DNA of 6,177 nt. Origin: Mageeibacillus sp. UBA5770. Lineage in GTDB: Bacteria; Bacillota_A; Clostridia; Saccharofermentanales; Saccharofermentanaceae. Within the stretch, counting starts at the first letter, position 1; every line of letters starts with the position of its first letter. The notes beneath the pieces were generated by a model that did no database searches, was not told the DNA's origin, and saw only the letters and a list, made by a program, of their open reading frames with translations. The position numbers and the translations under genes were made by a program. Shown piece after piece: positions 1 to 6,016 of this stretch. The stretch spans positions 1 through 6,177 of the forward strand of contig DIEQ01000104.1 in the NCBI GenBank assembly GCA_002418705.1. The letters are read 5' to 3'.

Positions 1-407
1 CCGTCTGCAGACACGAATTCGAGCGCGGCATCGGAAAATCTCGCCTGCCAGTTATCTTTCTTCATCGACGGCGTAAGGTCCAGGACCTGTCCCCGTCTCG
101 CGTACGTGGCCAGCTGACCGCCTCCCCATGTCTGGAAAACGTCTACGTCCCTGGCGCCGGCGGCGAGCATCGTGGCGAATTTCATCTTATAGTTGCTCAT
201 GTCGCCGTAGCTGACGACCTGGACTTCGTAGCCGGGGTTGGTGGCCTTGAACCGCTCAATCGCGCCGTCCAGAACTTTCCTGAACGGTGTTCCCGCCGGA
301 TAGATATCCCAGACAGTCAGTGTCTTTTCTTGGGCGCCAATGGAAGTCACGAGTACTCCGCCCATGGCGATCGCCACGCAGAGTACGACTGCGAAAAACC
401 TCTTCAT
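1..407 (-). CDS. Sugar ABC transporter substrate-binding protein, N-terminal part (runs off the window)
   Basis: This is the first 135 codons of a secreted solute-binding protein of the extracellular family 1 type, which captures a sugar or oligosaccharide outside the membrane and delivers it to an ABC permease. The start is the ATG at 407-405, chosen because a perfect AGGAGG (420-415) sits 7 nt upstream. Residues 1-25 form a signal peptide: MKR, a hydrophobic core, then SIGA before QEKTLTVWD. The only Cys (residue 10) is not in a lipobox, so this looks like a periplasmic protein rather than a lipoprotein. Typical family features follow: the first beta strand TLTVWD, the helix IERFKATNPGYEV, and MKFATMLAAGARDVDVFQTW with its glycine-rich turn. 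The gene starts 27 nt after the LacI-family gene and is probably cotranscribed with it; permease genes would be expected beyond the window edge. The ligand cannot be told from this fragment. The family call is firm. Confidence 0.88.
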   Translation of the reverse strand, partial: MKRFFAVVLCVAIAMGGVLVTSIGAQEKTLTVWDIYPAGTPFRKVLDGAIERFKATNPGYEVQVVSYGDMSNYKMKFATMLAAGARDVDVFQTWGGGQLATYARRGQVLDLTPSMKKDNWQARFSDAALEFVSAD

Positions 408-434: not shown

Positions 435-1457
435 TCAATGTCTGCTACATGTATCCCGGATTACCAAACTGGTTCCCAGAACTATGTCCTTATTGCGAGG
501 GGCTCCTCCGCTGATTTGCTCCAAAAGCAGGGATGCGGCCGAACGTCCCATTTCGTGCAGAGGCTGCCGAACCGTCGTGAGGGCGGGAACGGAAAATCCG
601 GCGGTAGGCAGGTCGTCGAAGCCGATGACCGAGAGGTCTTGCGGAACACGTATTCCCATGTCGCGCGCCACATCCATCGTCCCGAAGGCCATCTCGTCGT
701 TGGAACAGAAAATGGCCGTGGGCCTCGAGGAGATCCCCATCAGTTTCATCGCGCACTCCTTACCGCTGTGTCTTGAGAAATCGCCGTATTCGATCAGTTC
801 GGAATCGAAATCTATACTCGCCTCACGCAAGGCGTCACGGTATCCTTCCAGTCGGTCGCGGCTGCACCCAAAGTCCATGATTCCGGTAATAAAACCTATG
901 CGGCGGTGTCCCAGAGAGATGAGGTATTTTGTCGCCTCGTAGGCCCCCGGCCTGTTTGCTGCCGTGATGCTCGGAAATTTGGATCCGACACCCCCGACAC
1001 CTCTGTGATCGACCAGCACCGTCGGGAAATGCGTTTTGAAGAGCTCATCTCCGTATTTCTCGAAATTCCTGGGCAGCAGCACGACCAGCCCGTCGGTGAC
1101 ATTGCCGGTGAGGCGGGGAATGAATCGTTTCTGGTTTTTTTCCATCAGGCTTGTCGTGTAGAGTACGAGCTCGTAATCCGTTTCGGCGATTCCCTCCGCG
1201 ACACCCTGAATGACCGTCAAGCTGTATGGATTCGTCAGGGAAGGGACGACGAGGCCGATGAGACCTGTCTTCCCCTTCACGAGGTTGATAGCCGATTTCT
1301 GCGGCACAAAACCGGTATCTTGTATGATTTTCAAAATGAGCTTGCGCGTCTTGGCATCCACGTCGGGCTTCTCGTTCAGCACGCGGGAGACCGTCGTCTT
1401 GGAAACACCCGACCGGGTAGCTATGTCGGCTATCGTGACTTTCCTGTTTTGCTCCAT
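435..1457 (-). CDS. LacI-family transcriptional regulator
   Basis: Full-length (340 aa) LacI/GalR-type DNA-binding repressor, presumably controlled by a sugar ligand. The N-terminal helix-turn-helix spans about residues 7-28 (VTIADIATRSGVSKTTVSRVLN); K20 and T21 occupy the positions of the LacI specificity residues. The hinge helix is around residues 54-62, with L59 where LacI inserts Leu56 into a central CpG, which matches the CG at the centre of the operators found here. The periplasmic-binding-like sensor domain follows, with LVVPSLTNPYS, HRRIGFI, CSNDEMA and VIGFDD, and a normal C-terminus. The ATG at 1457-1455 is supported by GGAGA a few bases upstream. The gene has its own promoter (1496-1524), and a perfect palindromic operator lies over the expected transcription start, so it is probably autoregulated. 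The sugar-binding-protein gene follows 27 nt downstream. The gene is GC-rich, unlike the sulfur genes upstream. The effector is unknown. Confidence 0.95.
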   Translation of the reverse strand: MEQNRKVTIADIATRSGVSKTTVSRVLNEKPDVDAKTRKLILKIIQDTGFVPQKSAINLVKGKTGLIGLVVPSLTNPYSLTVIQGVAEGIAETDYELVLYTTSLMEKNQKRFIPRLTGNVTDGLVVLLPRNFEKYGDELFKTHFPTVLVDHRGVGGVGSKFPSITAANRPGAYEATKYLISLGHRRIGFITGIMDFGCSRDRLEGYRDALREASIDFDSELIEYGDFSRHSGKECAMKLMGISSRPTAIFCSNDEMAFGTMDVARDMGIRVPQDLSVIGFDDLPTAGFSVPALTTVRQPLHEMGRSAASLLLEQISGGAPRNKDIVLGTSLVIRDTCSRH

Positions 1458-1477
1458 TATTTCTCCGTTACCGATTC

Positions 1478-1491
1478 CGTAACCGGTTACG
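1478..1491. promoter_or_regulatory. LacI-family operator in front of the regulator gene
   Basis: CGTAACCGGTTACG is a perfect 14-bp palindrome centred on CG, the classic shape of a LacI/GalR-family operator. It lies 4 bp downstream of the -10 box, over the predicted start of transcription (about 1489), so a bound repressor would block initiation. An extra half-site (GTTAC, 1467-1471) lies between it and the regulator's ribosome site. A 13/14 match occurs upstream of the isomerase operon. That the adjacent LacI-family protein binds it is inference from position and symmetry. Confidence 0.85.
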
Positions 1492-1495
1492 AAGC

Positions 1496-1524
1496 AGAAT
1501 ATATCATTCTTTTCTATCTGTCAA
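1496..1524 (-). promoter_or_regulatory. Sigma70-type promoter of the LacI-family gene
   Basis: On the minus strand, TTGACA (1524-1519) is followed by a 17-bp spacer and TATTCT (1501-1496): a consensus -35 and a 5/6 -10 at ideal spacing. The predicted start near 1489 falls inside the operator and gives a leader of roughly 32 nt before the regulator ATG. The -35 and the first half of the spacer are repeated exactly at the isomerase promoter. No terminator is visible between sufE and this promoter (1525-1605 is plain AT-rich sequence), so read-through from the sulfur operon is also possible. Confidence 0.85.
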
Positions 1525-1605
1525 GGAAAATTTGTACTACTCTCTTCCAATTCTTGTAATCATCAATTTAATCATACAATGAATAATACTTTCTTAGATA
1601 ATAAG

Positions 1606-2028
1606 TCAGTCATCTTTAAGTTGTATCCTGCAATAAGTTTTTATTACTTCAACAGCTTTATTAATCCCAACAACCCTTGTTGAAACCATCTTGTCTTTAA
1701 TTCCTAATAATTCGAGAAAATCACAATCAAAATCGACTACTTCTGAGGGGAGAAGCCCATTGAAAGCATTTACCATCAAACCAAGAATACCAAGTACTAT
1801 CAGGGAGTCACTATCTACATCACAATTAATCTTACCATTTTCATCTAGGTCGACACTAATCCATGCCATGGATTGGCATCCTTTTATTCTATTATTGTCT
1901 GTTCTGGCAACCTTTCCGTAAGGAAATTTGCTCGCAAAGGCAATTATATAGGAATATTTGTTCATCCAATCACCTAGCCGATCGAATGTATCTTTTAAAA
2001 TAGAAAGCCTTTTTTTAAGTTCGGTCAC
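1606..2028 (-). CDS. sufE: SufE-family sulfur acceptor protein
   Basis: SufE proteins take the persulfide sulfur from the catalytic cysteine of a SufS/CsdA-type desulfurase and pass it on, usually to the Fe-S scaffold SufBCD or to a sulfur-incorporating enzyme in the cytoplasm. At 140 aa this one is full length. It has the family signature: a WMNKYSYII segment (21-29), the active-site loop NNRIKGCQSMAW (45-56) with the acceptor cysteine C51, SDSLIVLGI (73-81) and a late FLELLG...STRVVG segment. The start is GTG at 2028; AGGAG (2040-2036) sits 7 nt upstream and overlaps the TAG stop of the desulfurase gene, so the two are translationally coupled. No sufB, sufC or sufD is in the window. Last gene of the AT-rich operon, 115 nt before the LacI-family promoter region. 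CsdE is the alternative name within the same family. Confidence 0.93.
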   Translation of the reverse strand: MTELKKRLSILKDTFDRLGDWMNKYSYIIAFASKFPYGKVARTDNNRIKGCQSMAWISVDLDENGKINCDVDSDSLIVLGILGLMVNAFNGLLPSEVVDFDCDFLELLGIKDKMVSTRVVGINKAVEVIKTYCRIQLKDD

Positions 2029-2038
2029 TATTCTACTC

Positions 2039-3250
2039 CTAAACAGCGATCAATTTCCTAAGGCATTCAATTAGCCAATCGATTTCTTCTTTAGTATTAT
2101 ATAACGCAAAAGAAGCTCGTACTGTTCCTGGTATTTTAAAATGATTCATGAGCGGTTGAGCACAATGAGTTCCTGATCTTACCGCGATTCCATAATTATC
2201 AAGAAAAAGCGCAACATCGAAGCAATTCATATTGCTAATGTTGAAAGATATCAAACCGGTCTGGTTTATTCCTTTTCCGTAGATTTCTATTCCAGGTATT
2301 TTAGAAAGTCTTTCAAGAGCATATGCGAACAATTCTTTTTCATGATTATAAATATTAGCTAATCCGATACTTTCGATATAATCTAGTGCTGAAAACAGAG
2401 AATAAGCAGCTGCAACATTTAGGGTCCCGGCCTCAAGTTTATAAGGTATCTCTGAAAAAGATGTTTTTAAATCCAGAACAGTATCAACCATCCCTCCTCC
2501 ATAACGGAAAGGTTTCATTTCGTTTAGTAATTCTTTTTTACCATAGAGAATTCCCAGCCCCATGGAGGAGTATAGTTTATGAGGAGAAAAACAGTAGAAG
2601 TCACAATCAATTTTTTGGACATCAACACCGCGGTAAGCAATTCCCTGTGCTCCATCGACAACCACATAGGAGCCATTTATATGAGCTAACCTGATTATTT
2701 CTTCCAAGGGAGTAAAAATCCCGGTTACATTCGACATCTGGCTTACCGCTAGAATTTTGACATCCTTAGTCAACTTAGATCGGAAATCCTCCATACTCAA
2801 ATATCCATCTTTATCAAGGTCAACAATTTTAAAATTGAAACCCCTATTTATGCAAAGTTGTTGCCATGGAACAAAGTTAGAGTGATGCTCAAGTCGAGTG
2901 ACTAGAATGCTATCACCATGGGAGAGCAATTTGCCTGCGAAACCATAGGCTATTGTATTGAGGGCATCAGTTGCATTGTTGGTAAAGATAATTTCTTCCG
3001 GGGCCTTAGAATTAATAAAACCTGCAACTTTTCCCCTCGTCTTTTCCAGGCCTTCGGTAGCTCTGTTTGCAAGTGTGTGTATTCCTCGATGAATATTGGA
3101 ATTACTATTTAAATAGTATTCAGATATTGAGTTAATTATTTGTAATGGTTTTTGACTTGTAGCCGCGTTATCGAAATAAACAAGATTATAACCATTGATT
3201 TTTTCCTTAAGTATTGGGAAATCCCTCCTGATAATTCTAGGATCTAACAT
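2039..3250 (-). CDS. sufS: SufS/CsdA-type (group II) cysteine desulfurase
   Basis: A PLP enzyme that converts L-cysteine to L-alanine and holds the sulfur as a cysteine persulfide for SufE. At 403 aa it matches E. coli SufS almost residue for residue. Visible motifs are the N-terminal YFDNAATSQKP (25-35), RLEHHSNFVPW (119-129) with H123, VVVDGAQG with D199 and Q202, the PLP lysine K225 in FSPHKLYSSMG, and the catalytic C363 in AVRSGTHCAQP with R358, followed by VRASFALYNT with R378. All key residues are present, so it should be active. The motif has Thr where SufS enzymes usually have His (RSGTHC against R-x-GHHC), and SPHKLYSS replaces the usual SGHKLYGP-like loop; both are mild departures near the active site. 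The ATG at 3250 overlaps the end of the ACP-like gene by 14 nt, with a weak GAGAG upstream, suggesting translational coupling. sufE follows after 10 nt. Confidence 0.95.
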   Translation of the reverse strand: MLDPRIIRRDFPILKEKINGYNLVYFDNAATSQKPLQIINSISEYYLNSNSNIHRGIHTLANRATEGLEKTRGKVAGFINSKAPEEIIFTNNATDALNTIAYGFAGKLLSHGDSILVTRLEHHSNFVPWQQLCINRGFNFKIVDLDKDGYLSMEDFRSKLTKDVKILAVSQMSNVTGIFTPLEEIIRLAHINGSYVVVDGAQGIAYRGVDVQKIDCDFYCFSPHKLYSSMGLGILYGKKELLNEMKPFRYGGGMVDTVLDLKTSFSEIPYKLEAGTLNVAAAYSLFSALDYIESIGLANIYNHEKELFAYALERLSKIPGIEIYGKGINQTGLISFNISNMNCFDVALFLDNYGIAVRSGTHCAQPLMNHFKIPGTVRASFALYNTKEEIDWLIECLRKLIAV

Positions 3251-3656
3251 TTTTTTCTCTCATACATCTTGAAACAAGTTTTTCAAGATCATCAATAGTC
3301 TCAATATCTCCTGACTCTTCGTCAGGTAATTTTAATCCTAAGTCTCTCTCCAGTGCTATCAACAATAATATTTTTTTAGCGACAAAAGAATTTACCCCAC
3401 TGCAATCTTTCCCATCTTTATACTTCACCTGAGAGAAATCAATTCCTGCAAGCCTGGCTATTGAAAGCTTTGCCAGTTGAATGATATCTCTTTTTTCAAG
3501 GTCTTTTTCCTCAAGGATGTATTTGTTTTGAATATACTTCTCTAGAAGTGAGGTTATTATTGCTTCATTTTTTCCATCTTCCATCAATAACTTACTCACT
3601 ATCTCATTATTGATCTTTTGTCTTTCTAAAATCTTTGCAAGAATTTCATCAGCCAT
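3237..3656 (-). CDS. Acyl-carrier-protein-like small protein next to the desulfurase
   Basis: A 139-aa protein I do not recognise as a named family. Its C-terminal half (about 57-133) reads like an acyl/peptidyl carrier domain: an LAKLSIARLAGID helix, SGVNSF where carriers have the G-x-DSL motif, then IALERDLGLKLPDEE...IETIDDLEKLV, which parallels the ALEEEFG-x-x-IPDEEA...I-T-V-DL pattern of ACPs. S90 is the candidate phosphopantetheine serine; Asn replaces the usual Asp before it and the following helix is about two residues longer, so modification is uncertain. The first 55 residues are a charged helical extension absent from ordinary ACP, and C85 lies just before the motif. The ATG at 3656, preceded by GGTGATG, was chosen over an upstream in-frame GTG at 3719 that lies inside a hairpin. 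The stop overlaps the sufS start, so partnership with SufS is likely. Its function is unknown. Confidence 0.7.
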   Translation of the reverse strand: MADEILAKILERQKINNEIVSKLLMEDGKNEAIITSLLEKYIQNKYILEEKDLEKRDIIQLAKLSIARLAGIDFSQVKYKDGKDCSGVNSFVAKKILLLIALERDLGLKLPDEESGDIETIDDLEKLVSRCMREKNVRS

Positions 3657-3693
3657 ATAACTTTCATCACCAATAATATTTATATATAAAGGC

Positions 3694-3726
3694 AAGAGGA
3701 GTGAAATAATCACTTCCACTCCTCTT
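3694..3726 (-). terminator. Perfect intercistronic hairpin after the isomerase gene
   Basis: AAGAGGAGTG and CACTCCTCTT form a perfect 10-bp stem (3694-3703 with 3717-3726) around a 13-nt loop, beginning 6 nt after the isomerase stop codon. On the transcript it is followed by GCC-UUU-AUAUAU, a poor U-tract. It is therefore better seen as a leaky terminator or an mRNA 3'-end stabiliser that lowers expression of the sulfur genes relative to the isomerase than as a full stop. No promoter was recognised between the hairpin and the ACP-like gene. Confidence 0.6.
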
Positions 3727-3732
3727 ATAAAA

Positions 3733-5202
3733 TTATGCAGTCACAATCTCAAGGCCAAGAACCGTTCCAAGCTCCTGAAGTTGCTCAACATAGTCACCAT
3801 ATACCCAAGTATAATGATGACCGAAGTCAAGCATTTTTTTGAAAAGGTCTCTTGAATTCTCAACGGTATAATAAATTCCAGAAGGACAACCTTCTGCATC
3901 CTTACCGGCACCCGCGACGATTTTTCCTCTAACAACGAGCATTTTTTTACCATTTGGATGGAAGCGAACGAGGGTAATTTTTTCTCCAATATCTTTATTA
4001 AAGTCATGCCTGAGTGTCGCCCCCCAACCAGAATAGGTAAAAGCGCGAATAGAGTACGGATCCATTGGTTCATCAATACCATGCATGTTGCGGGGCTGGA
4101 CTGCGTGCCATGTCGAAACTATATTTTTCTTCCCTTCAATTTCAGGTACTAATTCAAGGCCAAGAGGGCTGGAATCTTCAGTTTTTAGCTCGTTGGATAA
4201 AGGATGAGTATTCCCCATATGAGTAGACGTTCTTGTCAAATACATAAGGACAATCATCGCCATCAACGCATTTACATCTGATTCGCATGCCGAGGGGATC
4301 CCTTCCTCTCTAAGGAGAGTATGGGCCAGACATGGAGTACATTTCAGTTCATCATTGAATTTTCTTGTCGCGCATATTTCAAAACAAGGCATAGTGAAGG
4401 CATTACATTCGTACTTTTCAAGGAGGGCGCGGATTACAATATAGAATTTTGCGGAATTTACGATATTTTCAACGGTCATGTTACTTTCTTCAGCATTGTT
4501 CTGGAGTTCTTTTGCTAATTGTTCTGCTTGTGATTTTTGCTCTTCAGTACAGTTGCGGAAAGCATCGAAGAGATCTTCTGCATTAGTAAAAGCGAATTTT
4601 ACTCCAAGATCCTTTGTAATACTTTGTAAATCGGTGATGGTACTTATGACGCCCTTGGAAACAATATCATTTTTTAGAATAACAAGGACCCTGGTGTGTT
4701 TCATCGCTGCTTTCACTTGCATATATTTCAACTGTCTGTTGGCATCGTCGGCGTCAATATAGCCATATGCCTCGAGCCCCCTATTCCTCAATCCAGCCGC
4801 ACCATCTGTACTCGCACAGCAACCGATTATTCCTACTGGCGCCTTGAAGCTCTCGGCAATTTCCATGGCCGGGAATTCATTGAAAAGGCCATCAAATAAG
4901 AAAATATCAGTCTTGCCCAGTGCATTCGTCAGCTTTTCCATCTCATTTTTTCTAAGAATAAACTCATCCGTCCACGTGATTAGTTCAGGGTCTAAAAATT
5001 GGATATAGTCCTTTGAATATTTCGTATTCAAGATATCTTTGAAAGCCTTAAATTTTTGATAGGCGATTTTAGTGTCGAATTCTGTAGTTAGCCGTTCAAC
5101 TGGCCCATGGCGACATGCTCCCTCATAGGCTGATCGATGAATCAGTTGCATATATGCAGGTTTTACCTTCAATTTGTAATCAATTGCTTTTTCAATTGCC
5201 AT
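3733..5202 (-). CDS. L-fucose/L-arabinose isomerase-fold protein (COG2407-like)
   Basis: A 489-aa cytoplasmic protein of the L-fucose/L-arabinose isomerase superfamily, whose characterised members interconvert aldoses and ketoses with a divalent metal. The architecture fits: alpha/beta N-terminal region, a central CESDVNALMAMIVLMYLT segment (306-323) matching the family's CE-x-D-motif helix, STWHAVQPRNM (363-373) matching the family's W-H-C-G-like strand, and the C-terminal domain GEKITLVRF...GHHYTWVYGDYVEQLQ (406-476) with the conserved HH-Y-x-x-VYGD. Departures are MGNTHPL (329-335), where many relatives have an acidic M-G-D segment, and Ala after the H366 position. Substrate, and even isomerase activity, are therefore unproven. 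The ATG at 5202 has AAGGAG (5215-5210) 7 nt upstream. It is the first gene of the operon, about 270 nt downstream of a strong operator-controlled promoter, and is AT-rich like the sulfur genes that follow. Confidence 0.8.
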   Translation of the reverse strand: MAIEKAIDYKLKVKPAYMQLIHRSAYEGACRHGPVERLTTEFDTKIAYQKFKAFKDILNTKYSKDYIQFLDPELITWTDEFILRKNEMEKLTNALGKTDIFLFDGLFNEFPAMEIAESFKAPVGIIGCCASTDGAAGLRNRGLEAYGYIDADDANRQLKYMQVKAAMKHTRVLVILKNDIVSKGVISTITDLQSITKDLGVKFAFTNAEDLFDAFRNCTEEQKSQAEQLAKELQNNAEESNMTVENIVNSAKFYIVIRALLEKYECNAFTMPCFEICATRKFNDELKCTPCLAHTLLREEGIPSACESDVNALMAMIVLMYLTRTSTHMGNTHPLSNELKTEDSSPLGLELVPEIEGKKNIVSTWHAVQPRNMHGIDEPMDPYSIRAFTYSGWGATLRHDFNKDIGEKITLVRFHPNGKKMLVVRGKIVAGAGKDAEGCPSGIYYTVENSRDLFKKMLDFGHHYTWVYGDYVEQLQELGTVLGLEIVTA

Positions 5203-5471
5203 GATATTTCTCCTTCTTTTCCTTGCAGATTAAGAATCTTAAAATTCCATGAGATTATTTTGTCTATGGAAATGAATTCATCTTAAATCAAACGCCATTC
5301 GTTATAGCTACTTGATAATCGGTGATCTAAAAGATCAAAATTCCCTTTCCATATCGGGTGGTAATAAATATTTACGATAGGGCCATTATTTGTGTCCCCC
5401 TTTATTCCTTAGAGAGAGAAGAAAAAAATGTGAGCACCAATTTACGTAACCGTTACCGTAATCGGTTACGA
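5203..5471 (-). other. Long untranslated leader of the isomerase operon
   Basis: From the predicted transcription start (about 5471) to the isomerase ATG there are about 270 nt with no gene. I see a possible mini-ORF (ATG at 5384, four codons, stop TAA) with a GGGGG purine run 9 nt upstream. There is also a potential stem between CCTATCG and CGATATGG around it, a 6-bp stem with a 3-nt loop at 5323-5337 (TGATCT/AGATCA), and a small hairpin at 5227-5239. I do not recognise a known riboswitch class, and there is no stem followed by a U-run that would make an attenuator. The leader could still be regulatory, or simply a remnant. Confidence 0.45.
5446..5470. promoter_or_regulatory. LacI-family operator cluster upstream of the isomerase operon
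   Basis: CGTAATCGGTTACG (5457-5470) is the same CG-centred palindrome as the one before the LacI-family gene, with one of seven base pairs broken. Immediately beside it GTAAC-C-GTTAC (5446-5456) forms a second, 5+1+5 inverted repeat, so four half-sites lie in 25 bp. The main site begins right after the predicted transcription start, 7 bp downstream of the -10 box, a position suited to repression. Binding by the LacI-family protein encoded at 435-1457 is inferred from the near-identity of the two sites. Confidence 0.82.
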
Positions 5472-5507
5472 AGGCTAATACTACATTACTATTTTCTATC
5501 TGTCAAG
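5457..5507 (-). repeat. Promoter-operator direct repeat, copy 2
   Basis: Second copy of the element described at 1478-1525: a 17-nt operator block (5457-5473, one mismatch) and the identical 16-nt block TTTTCTATCTGTCAAG (5492-5507). Similarity stops abruptly outside these blocks. Both copies drive minus-strand transcription. Confidence 0.85.
5478..5506 (-). promoter_or_regulatory. Sigma70-type promoter of the isomerase-sulfur operon
   Basis: On the minus strand TTGACA (5506-5501) is followed by a 17-bp spacer and TAGTAT (5483-5478). The -35 and adjoining bases, TTGACAGATAGAAAA, are identical to those of the LacI-family promoter, whereas the -10 differs. An A/T-rich run lies just upstream of the -35. 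Initiation is expected near 5471, directly before the operator. The insertion sequence ends within about 15 bp of the -35 box, leaving the promoter intact. Confidence 0.82.
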
Positions 5508-5559
5508 AAAAAACTTTCATATGGGTGCACGACAAATTAGTTGCCTTTTTTTAAATTAC

Positions 5560-5623: not shown

Positions 5624-6016
5624 ATGATCAATAGCGTTCTTGCGCAATTACTTGACCATAAGGCACTTCTTCTTACAGAGCTCCAACAGTTCGGTGACTT
5701 TCGCCAGGGGACCCTTGTCGGCCGATATCGTAAATGCGGAAAACCGTACTGTCATTGCGCGAAGCCCGGGGAAAAAGGCCATGGGCCCAGTTGGTCTCTT
5801 ACGCGGACGATCAATGGAAAAACTGTTACAAAAATCATTCCTGCATCTGCCGTCGACGAGACGCAAAGACAGATAGCGGAGTACCACCGGTTCCGGGATA
5901 CCATTACCGATTTGATAGAAACCAATACGCAAATATGCGACGCGAAACTGGAACACCCGGATACCGACGATAGCGACCTCAAAGGGGCCGAAAAAAGGGG
6001 CTCCAGAAAGCCGTAG
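5624..6016 (+). CDS. Insertion sequence orfA, DUF6788-like zinc-binding protein
   Basis: A 130-aa protein resembling the small DUF6788-type proteins found with transposases. Residues 29-72 carry the recognisable core: GTLVGRYRKCGKPYCHCA with C38, C43 and C45 (C-x4-C-x-C, a probable metal site), then KGHGPSWSLTRTINGKTVTKIIP. A helical segment, ETQRQIAEYHRFRDTITDLIE (79-99), follows. The ATG at 5624 has a perfect AGGAGG 6 nt upstream. The last 25 residues are hydrophilic and of low complexity, and the reading frame ends just after an A6G4 run from which the transposase frame continues in -1. This protein is therefore likely either a stand-alone accessory protein or the N-terminal part of an orfA-orfB fusion. 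Its biochemical role in transposition is unknown to me. Confidence 0.72.
   Translation: MINSVLAQLLDHKALLLTELQQFGDFRQGTLVGRYRKCGKPYCHCAKPGEKGHGPSWSLTRTINGKTVTKIIPASAVDETQRQIAEYHRFRDTITDLIETNTQICDAKLEHPDTDDSDLKGAEKRGSRKP

Follow-up and report, generated by a model that had tools for sequence, protein, structure and literature searches.

Sulfur relays feed iron–sulfur (Fe-S) clusters, tRNA, thiamine and molybdenum enzymes. Desulfurases of the SufS family take sulfur from cysteine as a persulfide, which proteins of the SufE family accept, while systems of the IscS-FdhD and NifS-XdhC type use a desulfurase and a chaperone for the dedicated sulfuration of metalloenzymes. We know of no sulfur relay that feeds a relative of the sugar isomerases. 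Here we analyzed a window of 6,177 nt, the whole stretch of Mageeibacillus sp. UBA5770 DNA under study, which carries on its minus strand, in this order, genes for an isomerase-fold protein (ISO), a protein with the fold of acyl carrier protein (ACP), designated ACPL, the cysteine desulfurase SufS and the sulfur acceptor SufE. We give about an even chance to the interpretation that these four genes constitute a dedicated persulfide relay, Cys→SufS→SufE→ACPL→ISO, for the isomerase-fold protein. Gene linkage, fusions, co-variation, residue conservation and predicted folds are shown here; the carrier function, the recipient, the chemistry and the substrate are inferred. A literature search, judged by its listings, found no published description of the ISO-ACPL-SufS-SufE set.

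The unit is compact. The ACPL gene (3237..3656, minus strand) overlaps sufS (2039..3250, minus strand) by 14 nt, a gap of 10 nt separates sufS from sufE (1606..2028, minus strand), and ISO (3733..5202, minus strand) lies 76 nt from ACPL, coordinates that agree with a preliminary description of this DNA as having four same-strand genes, the last three tightly packed. SufS (403 aa), a group II cysteine desulfurase, scores 537.1 bits against the curated TIGR01979 cut-off of 475.1, and SufE (140 aa, GTG start) scores 96.3 bits against the Pfam cut-off of 27 (PF02657). The window SufS has both Lys225, the pyridoxal phosphate lysine, and Cys363, the catalytic cysteine; in an alignment of 34 rows that includes NifS-type sequences, the lysine is present in 33 (one gap) and the cysteine in 31 (three gaps). 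The acceptor cysteine of SufE, Cys51, is present in 28 of 29 aligned rows, the exception being one contig-end row with Tyr. Judged by their sequences, both proteins are unremarkable representatives of their families and retain the catalytic residues, a likeness to the SufS-SufE (SUF) and CsdA-CsdE relays. The locus differs from those relays in the carrier-like third protein and the isomerase-fold protein beside SufS and SufE, and SufB, SufC and SufD were absent from the window genes scanned with Pfam (the sampled genomes described below were not searched for SufB).

The third protein, ACPL, has 139 aa from its ATG start, or 160 aa in a longer frame that opens with the GTG at 3719. It had earlier been taken for a carrier domain, and the structural model came out in favour of that proposal: it has the ACP fold, detected weakly by Foldseek alone (best E 0.015, root-mean-square deviation 6.6 Å) and more clearly in a VIA structure re-comparison over its own candidates. 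By sequence, the ACP likeness is very weak, with best PDB E values of 1.9e-4 for the sequence and 5.8e-4 for the profile; the window protein has no Pfam match up to E 1 and falls below the NCBIfam carrier cut-off (best 16.8 bits vs 71; best NCBIfam E 0.006). A single-sequence search against 5.8 billion proteins matched the window's own entry alone, and the family was recovered via ISO neighbourhoods and then by profile. No Pfam domain is present in any of the 97 listed database members, of which the named ones are labelled hypothetical; these 97 include the window's own entry, overlap in part with the sequences from the loci, and belong mostly to one subgroup.

One cysteine, C85 (codon at 3402..3404, minus strand), is invariant in all 51 ACPL sequences from the loci and in all 97 database sequences; Lys94 is a second invariant residue. 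In the model, C85 stands at the start of a helix comprising residues 85-106 (helix II), preceded by residues 80-84 with a predicted local distance difference test score (pLDDT) below 50; it is the proposed sulfur-carrying residue. Persulfide carriers of the TusA/FdhD type, to which ACPL would be comparable in function only, receive the persulfide on an invariant cysteine, and it is the invariance that the alignments show for C85. Automatic alignment placed a Cys at position 85 in 18 of 21 further ACPL places, and in the misaligned sequences it was recovered by profile alignment (L065, L071) or by reading (L091). Compared with ACP, including that of the NFS1-ISD11-ACP complex, ACPL shares the fold and differs in having no conserved phosphopantetheine serine or DSL motif, a lengthened helix II, the invariant Cys85 and Lys94, and an N-terminal extension, which the model shows as an additional helix, together with additional short helices in the first loop.

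These residues bear on the proposal, made in the preliminary description, that ACPL is phosphopantetheinylated on S90, in which case it could carry an intermediate that undergoes a sulfur step. Such a role is suited by the ACP fold, by the presence of S90 in the window protein and by weak matches of the Pfam phosphopantetheine model to 9 of 49 family members (best E 0.0019; the 49-row alignment drops two of the 51 rows, L003 with runs of N and L046 with a long doubtful frame). However, position 90 is occupied by Ser in 35 of the 51 sequences from the loci and by Thr in 91 of the 97 from databases, S90 is not preceded by Asp, and the DSL motif is absent. In a gapless alignment made by eye, the equivalent of ACP Ser36 is V92, a position held by Met in 19/51 and 94/97 sequences and by Ser in 7/51. 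Because the S90 position varies while C85 is invariant, the sequences indicate that ACPL is probably no phosphopantetheine carrier, and this reading, which we regard as highly improbable, was dropped.

The proposed tie of ACPL to the desulfurase system is supported both by neighbourhood and by fusions: ACPL is found in one open frame with SufS at L037, L038, L027 and L063, and with SufE at L036 and L053. It is also connected to ISO. The distances among ACPLs track those among the neighbouring ISO proteins with r 0.599 (50 of the 51 ACPLs, one from L021 being omitted; two pairs, at L013 and L015, were manually matched to the upstream ISO instead). When the pairs were shuffled freely, r was at most 0.19 in 1000 trials; when they were shuffled among the paralogues of one locus, which preserves species history, the mean was 0.43 and the maximum 0.595 in a sample of 2000 possible reassignments. 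The 20-kb locus L021 has five ISO genes and six ACPL stretches, with one SufS and one SufE; the frame that holds one of these ACPL stretches (14606-15274) resembles a remnant of ISO at its beginning. Since ACPL co-varies with ISO and in L021 has multiplied with ISO and not with SufS or SufE, it looks like a paralogue-specific adaptor, with SufS and SufE as a shared sulfur source.

The same data bear on another role, in which ACPL would activate SufS/SufE structurally or serve them as a docking subunit, much as ACP-ISD11 does for NFS1, with the desulfurase feeding Fe-S or other pathway pools and ISO linked mainly by shared regulation. ACP-desulfurase complexes exist, as the title of PDB 5usr indicates, and one report describes E. 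coli ACP contacting IscS via Ser36, Asp35 and Asp38, and acylated ACP raising IscS activity (PMC13343975); the fusions of ACPL to SufS or SufE would also suit docking. That report gives no binding of E. coli ACP to SufS in a two-hybrid test, and in our alignment ACPL keeps none of the three IscS-binding residues, so this is not simply the ACP-IscS story. The ACP-IscS parallel drawn in the preliminary description is therefore a loose one. An activator would, moreover, have no need of the invariant Cys, nor does this role sit well with an ACPL that tracks its own ISO paralogue and multiplies with it in L021, and no LYR-type protein was found among the window genes scanned with Pfam, the only place searched. 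We consider the activator role unlikely.

The proposed recipient, ISO (489 aa), is predicted to adopt the FucI and AraA fold across its full length, at 12-15% identity. The earlier suggestion of a link between the set and an enzyme of sugar type is supported. By sequence the isomerase likeness is weak: neither ISO nor its profiles found anything relevant among PDB sequences, profile comparison (hhalign) with E. coli AraA and FucI gave weak local alignments only, and ISO lies far below the equivalog cut-off of the sulfoquinovose-isomerase (SftI) model (64.8 bits vs 700). Sulfoquinovose was accordingly dropped as a candidate substrate; the scanned genes of the window also include none for sulfoglycolysis.

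We take the metal ligands of AraA to be E306, E333, H350 and H450. In the weak AraA alignment, E306 falls on E307 of ISO and E333 on G330/N331; this residue match follows hhalign up to residue 330, and H350 and H450 were placed by eye on H366 and H463 from order and motif. The presumed ligand set is incomplete in ISO: of the 67 rows, 63 have Asn331 at the second acidic position and 60 have E307. The conserved cysteines of ISO are at positions 30, 266, 273, 277, 291, 306 and 439. C30, C266 and C277, conserved in 60, 63 and 62 of the 67 rows, respectively, are absent from four more distant FucI-like rows, all of which have C273, C291 and C306, and three of which have C439. ISO has the same predicted fold as the L-fucose and L-arabinose isomerases and differs from them in Asn331 and in the clade-specific C30, C266 and C277; its active site would appear, from these alignments, to be changed and thiol-rich. 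We doubt that ISO is a plain aldose-ketose isomerase. In four ISO loci that form one clade of the ISO tree (L014, L023, L033, L049), a NifS/IscS-type desulfurase with its Cys and Lys motifs in place adjoins ISO, and there is neither a Suf set nor ACPL. The presence of two kinds of desulfurase beside one enzyme family points to a need for sulfur in ISO itself.

To place the set beyond this genome, one genome from each of 84,980 species was scanned with two short peptide patterns that cover part of the ISO family. The scan gave 55 loci, 53 of which have ISO proper by profile (L054 and L055 fall below the ISO threshold); as the loci were selected by ISO, the ISO count there is no evidence. Within 5 kb of ISO in these 53 loci, ACPL is found in 38, a SufS-type desulfurase in 28, SufE in 32, and all three in 23. 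The ACPL-bearing loci belong to Bacillota, Actinomycetota (Eggerthellaceae and kin), Spirochaetota and Myxococcota, and differ in gene order and in regulators (LacI, LysR, AraC or a PucR-type helix-turn-helix protein). The gene clusters most widely common at the loci are ISO, SufS and SufE/ACPL, with two regulator groups. Viral contigs searched for relatives gave none.

Further genome samples were drawn regardless of ISO; as their genomes are related, the co-occurrence counts are not independent events, and no p-value is claimed. Among 250 genomes of the family of G001 (Pseudobutyrivibrio; Lachnospiraceae), ACPL is present in 10 and SufE in 9, all of them within those 10; the sample contains three known positives (G001-G003) and seemingly others from the ISO scan. 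Its 16 ACPL places comprise 13 with ISO in the fetched 2-3.4 kb, two with ISO just beyond, and L058 at a contig end. In the class of G001 (Clostridia, 245 genomes, with one positive besides the centre genome), ACPL and SufE occur in the same two genomes; five genomes have an ISO match at E <= 1e-20, which comes close to full length in the same two alone. In both samples, then, every genome with SufE has ACPL (2/2 and 9/9), a further difference from the SUF and CsdA-CsdE relays. The set is a conserved unit and not a feature of this genome alone, an outcome in favour of the preliminary description. In the class of G004 (an Eggerthellaceae genome; Coriobacteriia, 149 genomes), ACPL is present in two genomes and SufE in three, which include both with ACPL; three of the four ACPL places there have ISO in the fetched stretch.

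The recurrence also bears on whether the unit is a chance or generic metabolic island of unrelated genes joined by transfer. The four genes have a GC content of 33-41%, against 52-57% in the flanking genes, and since it is AT-rich between GC-richer flanks the operon was probably acquired; adjoining the AT-rich segment on the far side of the operon is a DUF6788 gene (5624-6016, plus strand, from the Pfam scan), which we take to be possibly part of a mobile element. Against chance stand the strong co-occurrence and the recurrence of the set in several phyla with varied orders, regulators and fusions. As the sole explanation, chance is contradicted by the neighbourhood and co-occurrence data, and we find it barely credible.

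Several observations weigh against the proposed relay. G569, in the G004 class sample, has SufE without ACPL, and L090, from the same sample, is an ACPL place without ISO in the fetched stretch. In the phylum of G006 (Spirochaetota, 149 genomes), SufE is present in 12 genomes and ACPL in one, with no overlap; SufE thus accompanies the set in the sampled Clostridia, and SufE and ACPL are independent in Spirochaetota. Finally, 8 of the 53 ISO loci have no desulfurase, SufE or ACPL partner nearby. These eight retain the ISO cysteines, barring one Ser at position 439 and one shortened row; a distant desulfurase might serve them, or their cysteines might need none.

Individual loci show a range of arrangements. 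At L025 (G006, Spirochaetes), an ISO-ACPL pair has no SufS nearby, and no SufE was found in the genome. In the contigs seen for L011 and L030 (Eubacterium ramulus), there are three ISO genes, with ACPL by one and SufS/SufE without ACPL by two. Two loci without ACPL have genes of carbohydrate type beside ISO, namely a lactonase, an HpcH aldolase and an Ldh_2 dehydrogenase at L014, and UxuA at L047. At L022 (8512-13070), ISO lies between genes for the IIC and IIB components of an ascorbate-type phosphotransferase system (PTS), followed by a SufS-type gene, with no ACPL or SufE nearby. The contexts without ACPL are sugar-acid-like and suggest sugar-derived ISO substrates, without fixing one. A regulator-like protein of ~528 aa is common to 15 loci (L031, L032, L034, L040, L041, L042 and others), mostly in divergent orientation, and its L031 member has a PucR-type C-terminal helix-turn-helix.

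Another alternative is that sulfur is put on the substrate: ISO would open a sugar and the ACPL persulfide would act as donor, so that a thio-sugar or other C-S compound is made or handled. A sugar-fold enzyme with a dedicated donor, alongside sugar-type regulators and transporters, suits this idea, but the uptake systems and the regulators of LacI, LysR, AraC and PucR type point to catabolism and not to the making of a product, and no partner for a thio-product appears among the most widely shared gene clusters (the smaller clusters were not all identified). We regard this alternative as quite unlikely.

Under the proposed relay, SufS would take sulfur from cysteine as a persulfide and pass it to Cys51 of SufE, a step that follows family knowledge and for which the residues alone were checked here. 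SufE would then transfer the sulfur to ACPL, which has kept the acyl-carrier fold and lost the phosphopantetheine site, with the invariant Cys85 at the tip of the lengthened helix II bearing the persulfide and the remainder of the protein adapting it to one particular ISO paralogue. ACPL would then deliver to the active-site region of ISO, rich in cysteines, the sulfur that ISO would need either as a persulfide or within a metal-sulfur site replacing the acid-ligated metal of sugar isomerases. The substrate of ISO would be sugar-like, taken up through the transporter encoded nearby and recognized by the LacI regulator. As in the IscS-FdhD and NifS-XdhC systems, the proposed ACPL would stand between the desulfurase and the enzyme as an adaptor that is devoted to one target and relies on an essential cysteine; it differs from these in fold and target, with no molybdenum cofactor enzyme. 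More tentatively, and with some doubt, we propose that an acyl-carrier fold with a persulfide cysteine in place of the pantetheine serine would be a new sulfur carrier, feeding a sugar-isomerase-fold enzyme in which a sulfur-dependent site has taken over from the acid-ligated metal site. Carbohydrate enzymes of this sulfur-dependent sort would then form a new family in anaerobes, every one having its own paired carrier and being transferable between phyla.

The window also encodes a LacI-family regulator (435..1457, minus strand), assigned by library scans and operator analysis, and the start of a sugar ATP-binding cassette (ABC)-transporter solute-binding protein (3..407, minus strand; PF01547, E 7e-12), cut by the window end. 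A promoter-like region with a LacI-type operator precedes lacI (1466..1530, minus strand; palindrome 1478-1491), and a diverged copy precedes ISO (5445..5512, minus strand; near-palindrome 5457-5470, second site 5445-5458), the two being 77% identical over 43 nt and 84% over 31 nt. The window has seven LacI-type operator matches, spread over five places, where 0.09 would be expected, and none of 200 shuffles reaches seven. Both regions have a TTGACA-type promoter-like pair; a promoter scan of the window gave 10 promoter-like sites versus 13.8 in shuffles, not above chance, and it is the repeated region, together with the operator matches, that carries the argument for regulation. On this evidence the LacI-family regulator probably governs both the ISO operon and the one to which it belongs, in response to an inducer that is probably sugar-like.

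Between ISO and ACPL the transcript has a very stable stem-loop of 14 pairs (3693..3727, minus strand; fold z-score -3.7, a stability that none of 200 shuffles attains), and a weak U-rich stretch comes after it; Rfam gave no match. The stem-loop is maybe a message stabiliser or an attenuator, and may leave the ISO message more abundant than that of ACPL, which would fit a catalytic adaptor.

The coupling of SufS, SufE and a cysteine-bearing, carrier-like protein to ISO in many gut and sediment bacteria suggests that ISO needs sulfur to be delivered. The desulfurase relay is of a known kind; what would be new is the carrier and the kind of target. If the proposed relay is correct, it would provide a new target for sulfur relays and a new use of the acyl-carrier fold, and give a role to the ACPL family, so far without a Pfam domain. 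It would also account for SufE in Clostridia, since the Gram-positive SUF system is reported to lack SufE (PMC8300815). In anaerobes of gut, rumen and sediment, it would probably mean a new cofactor or chemistry.

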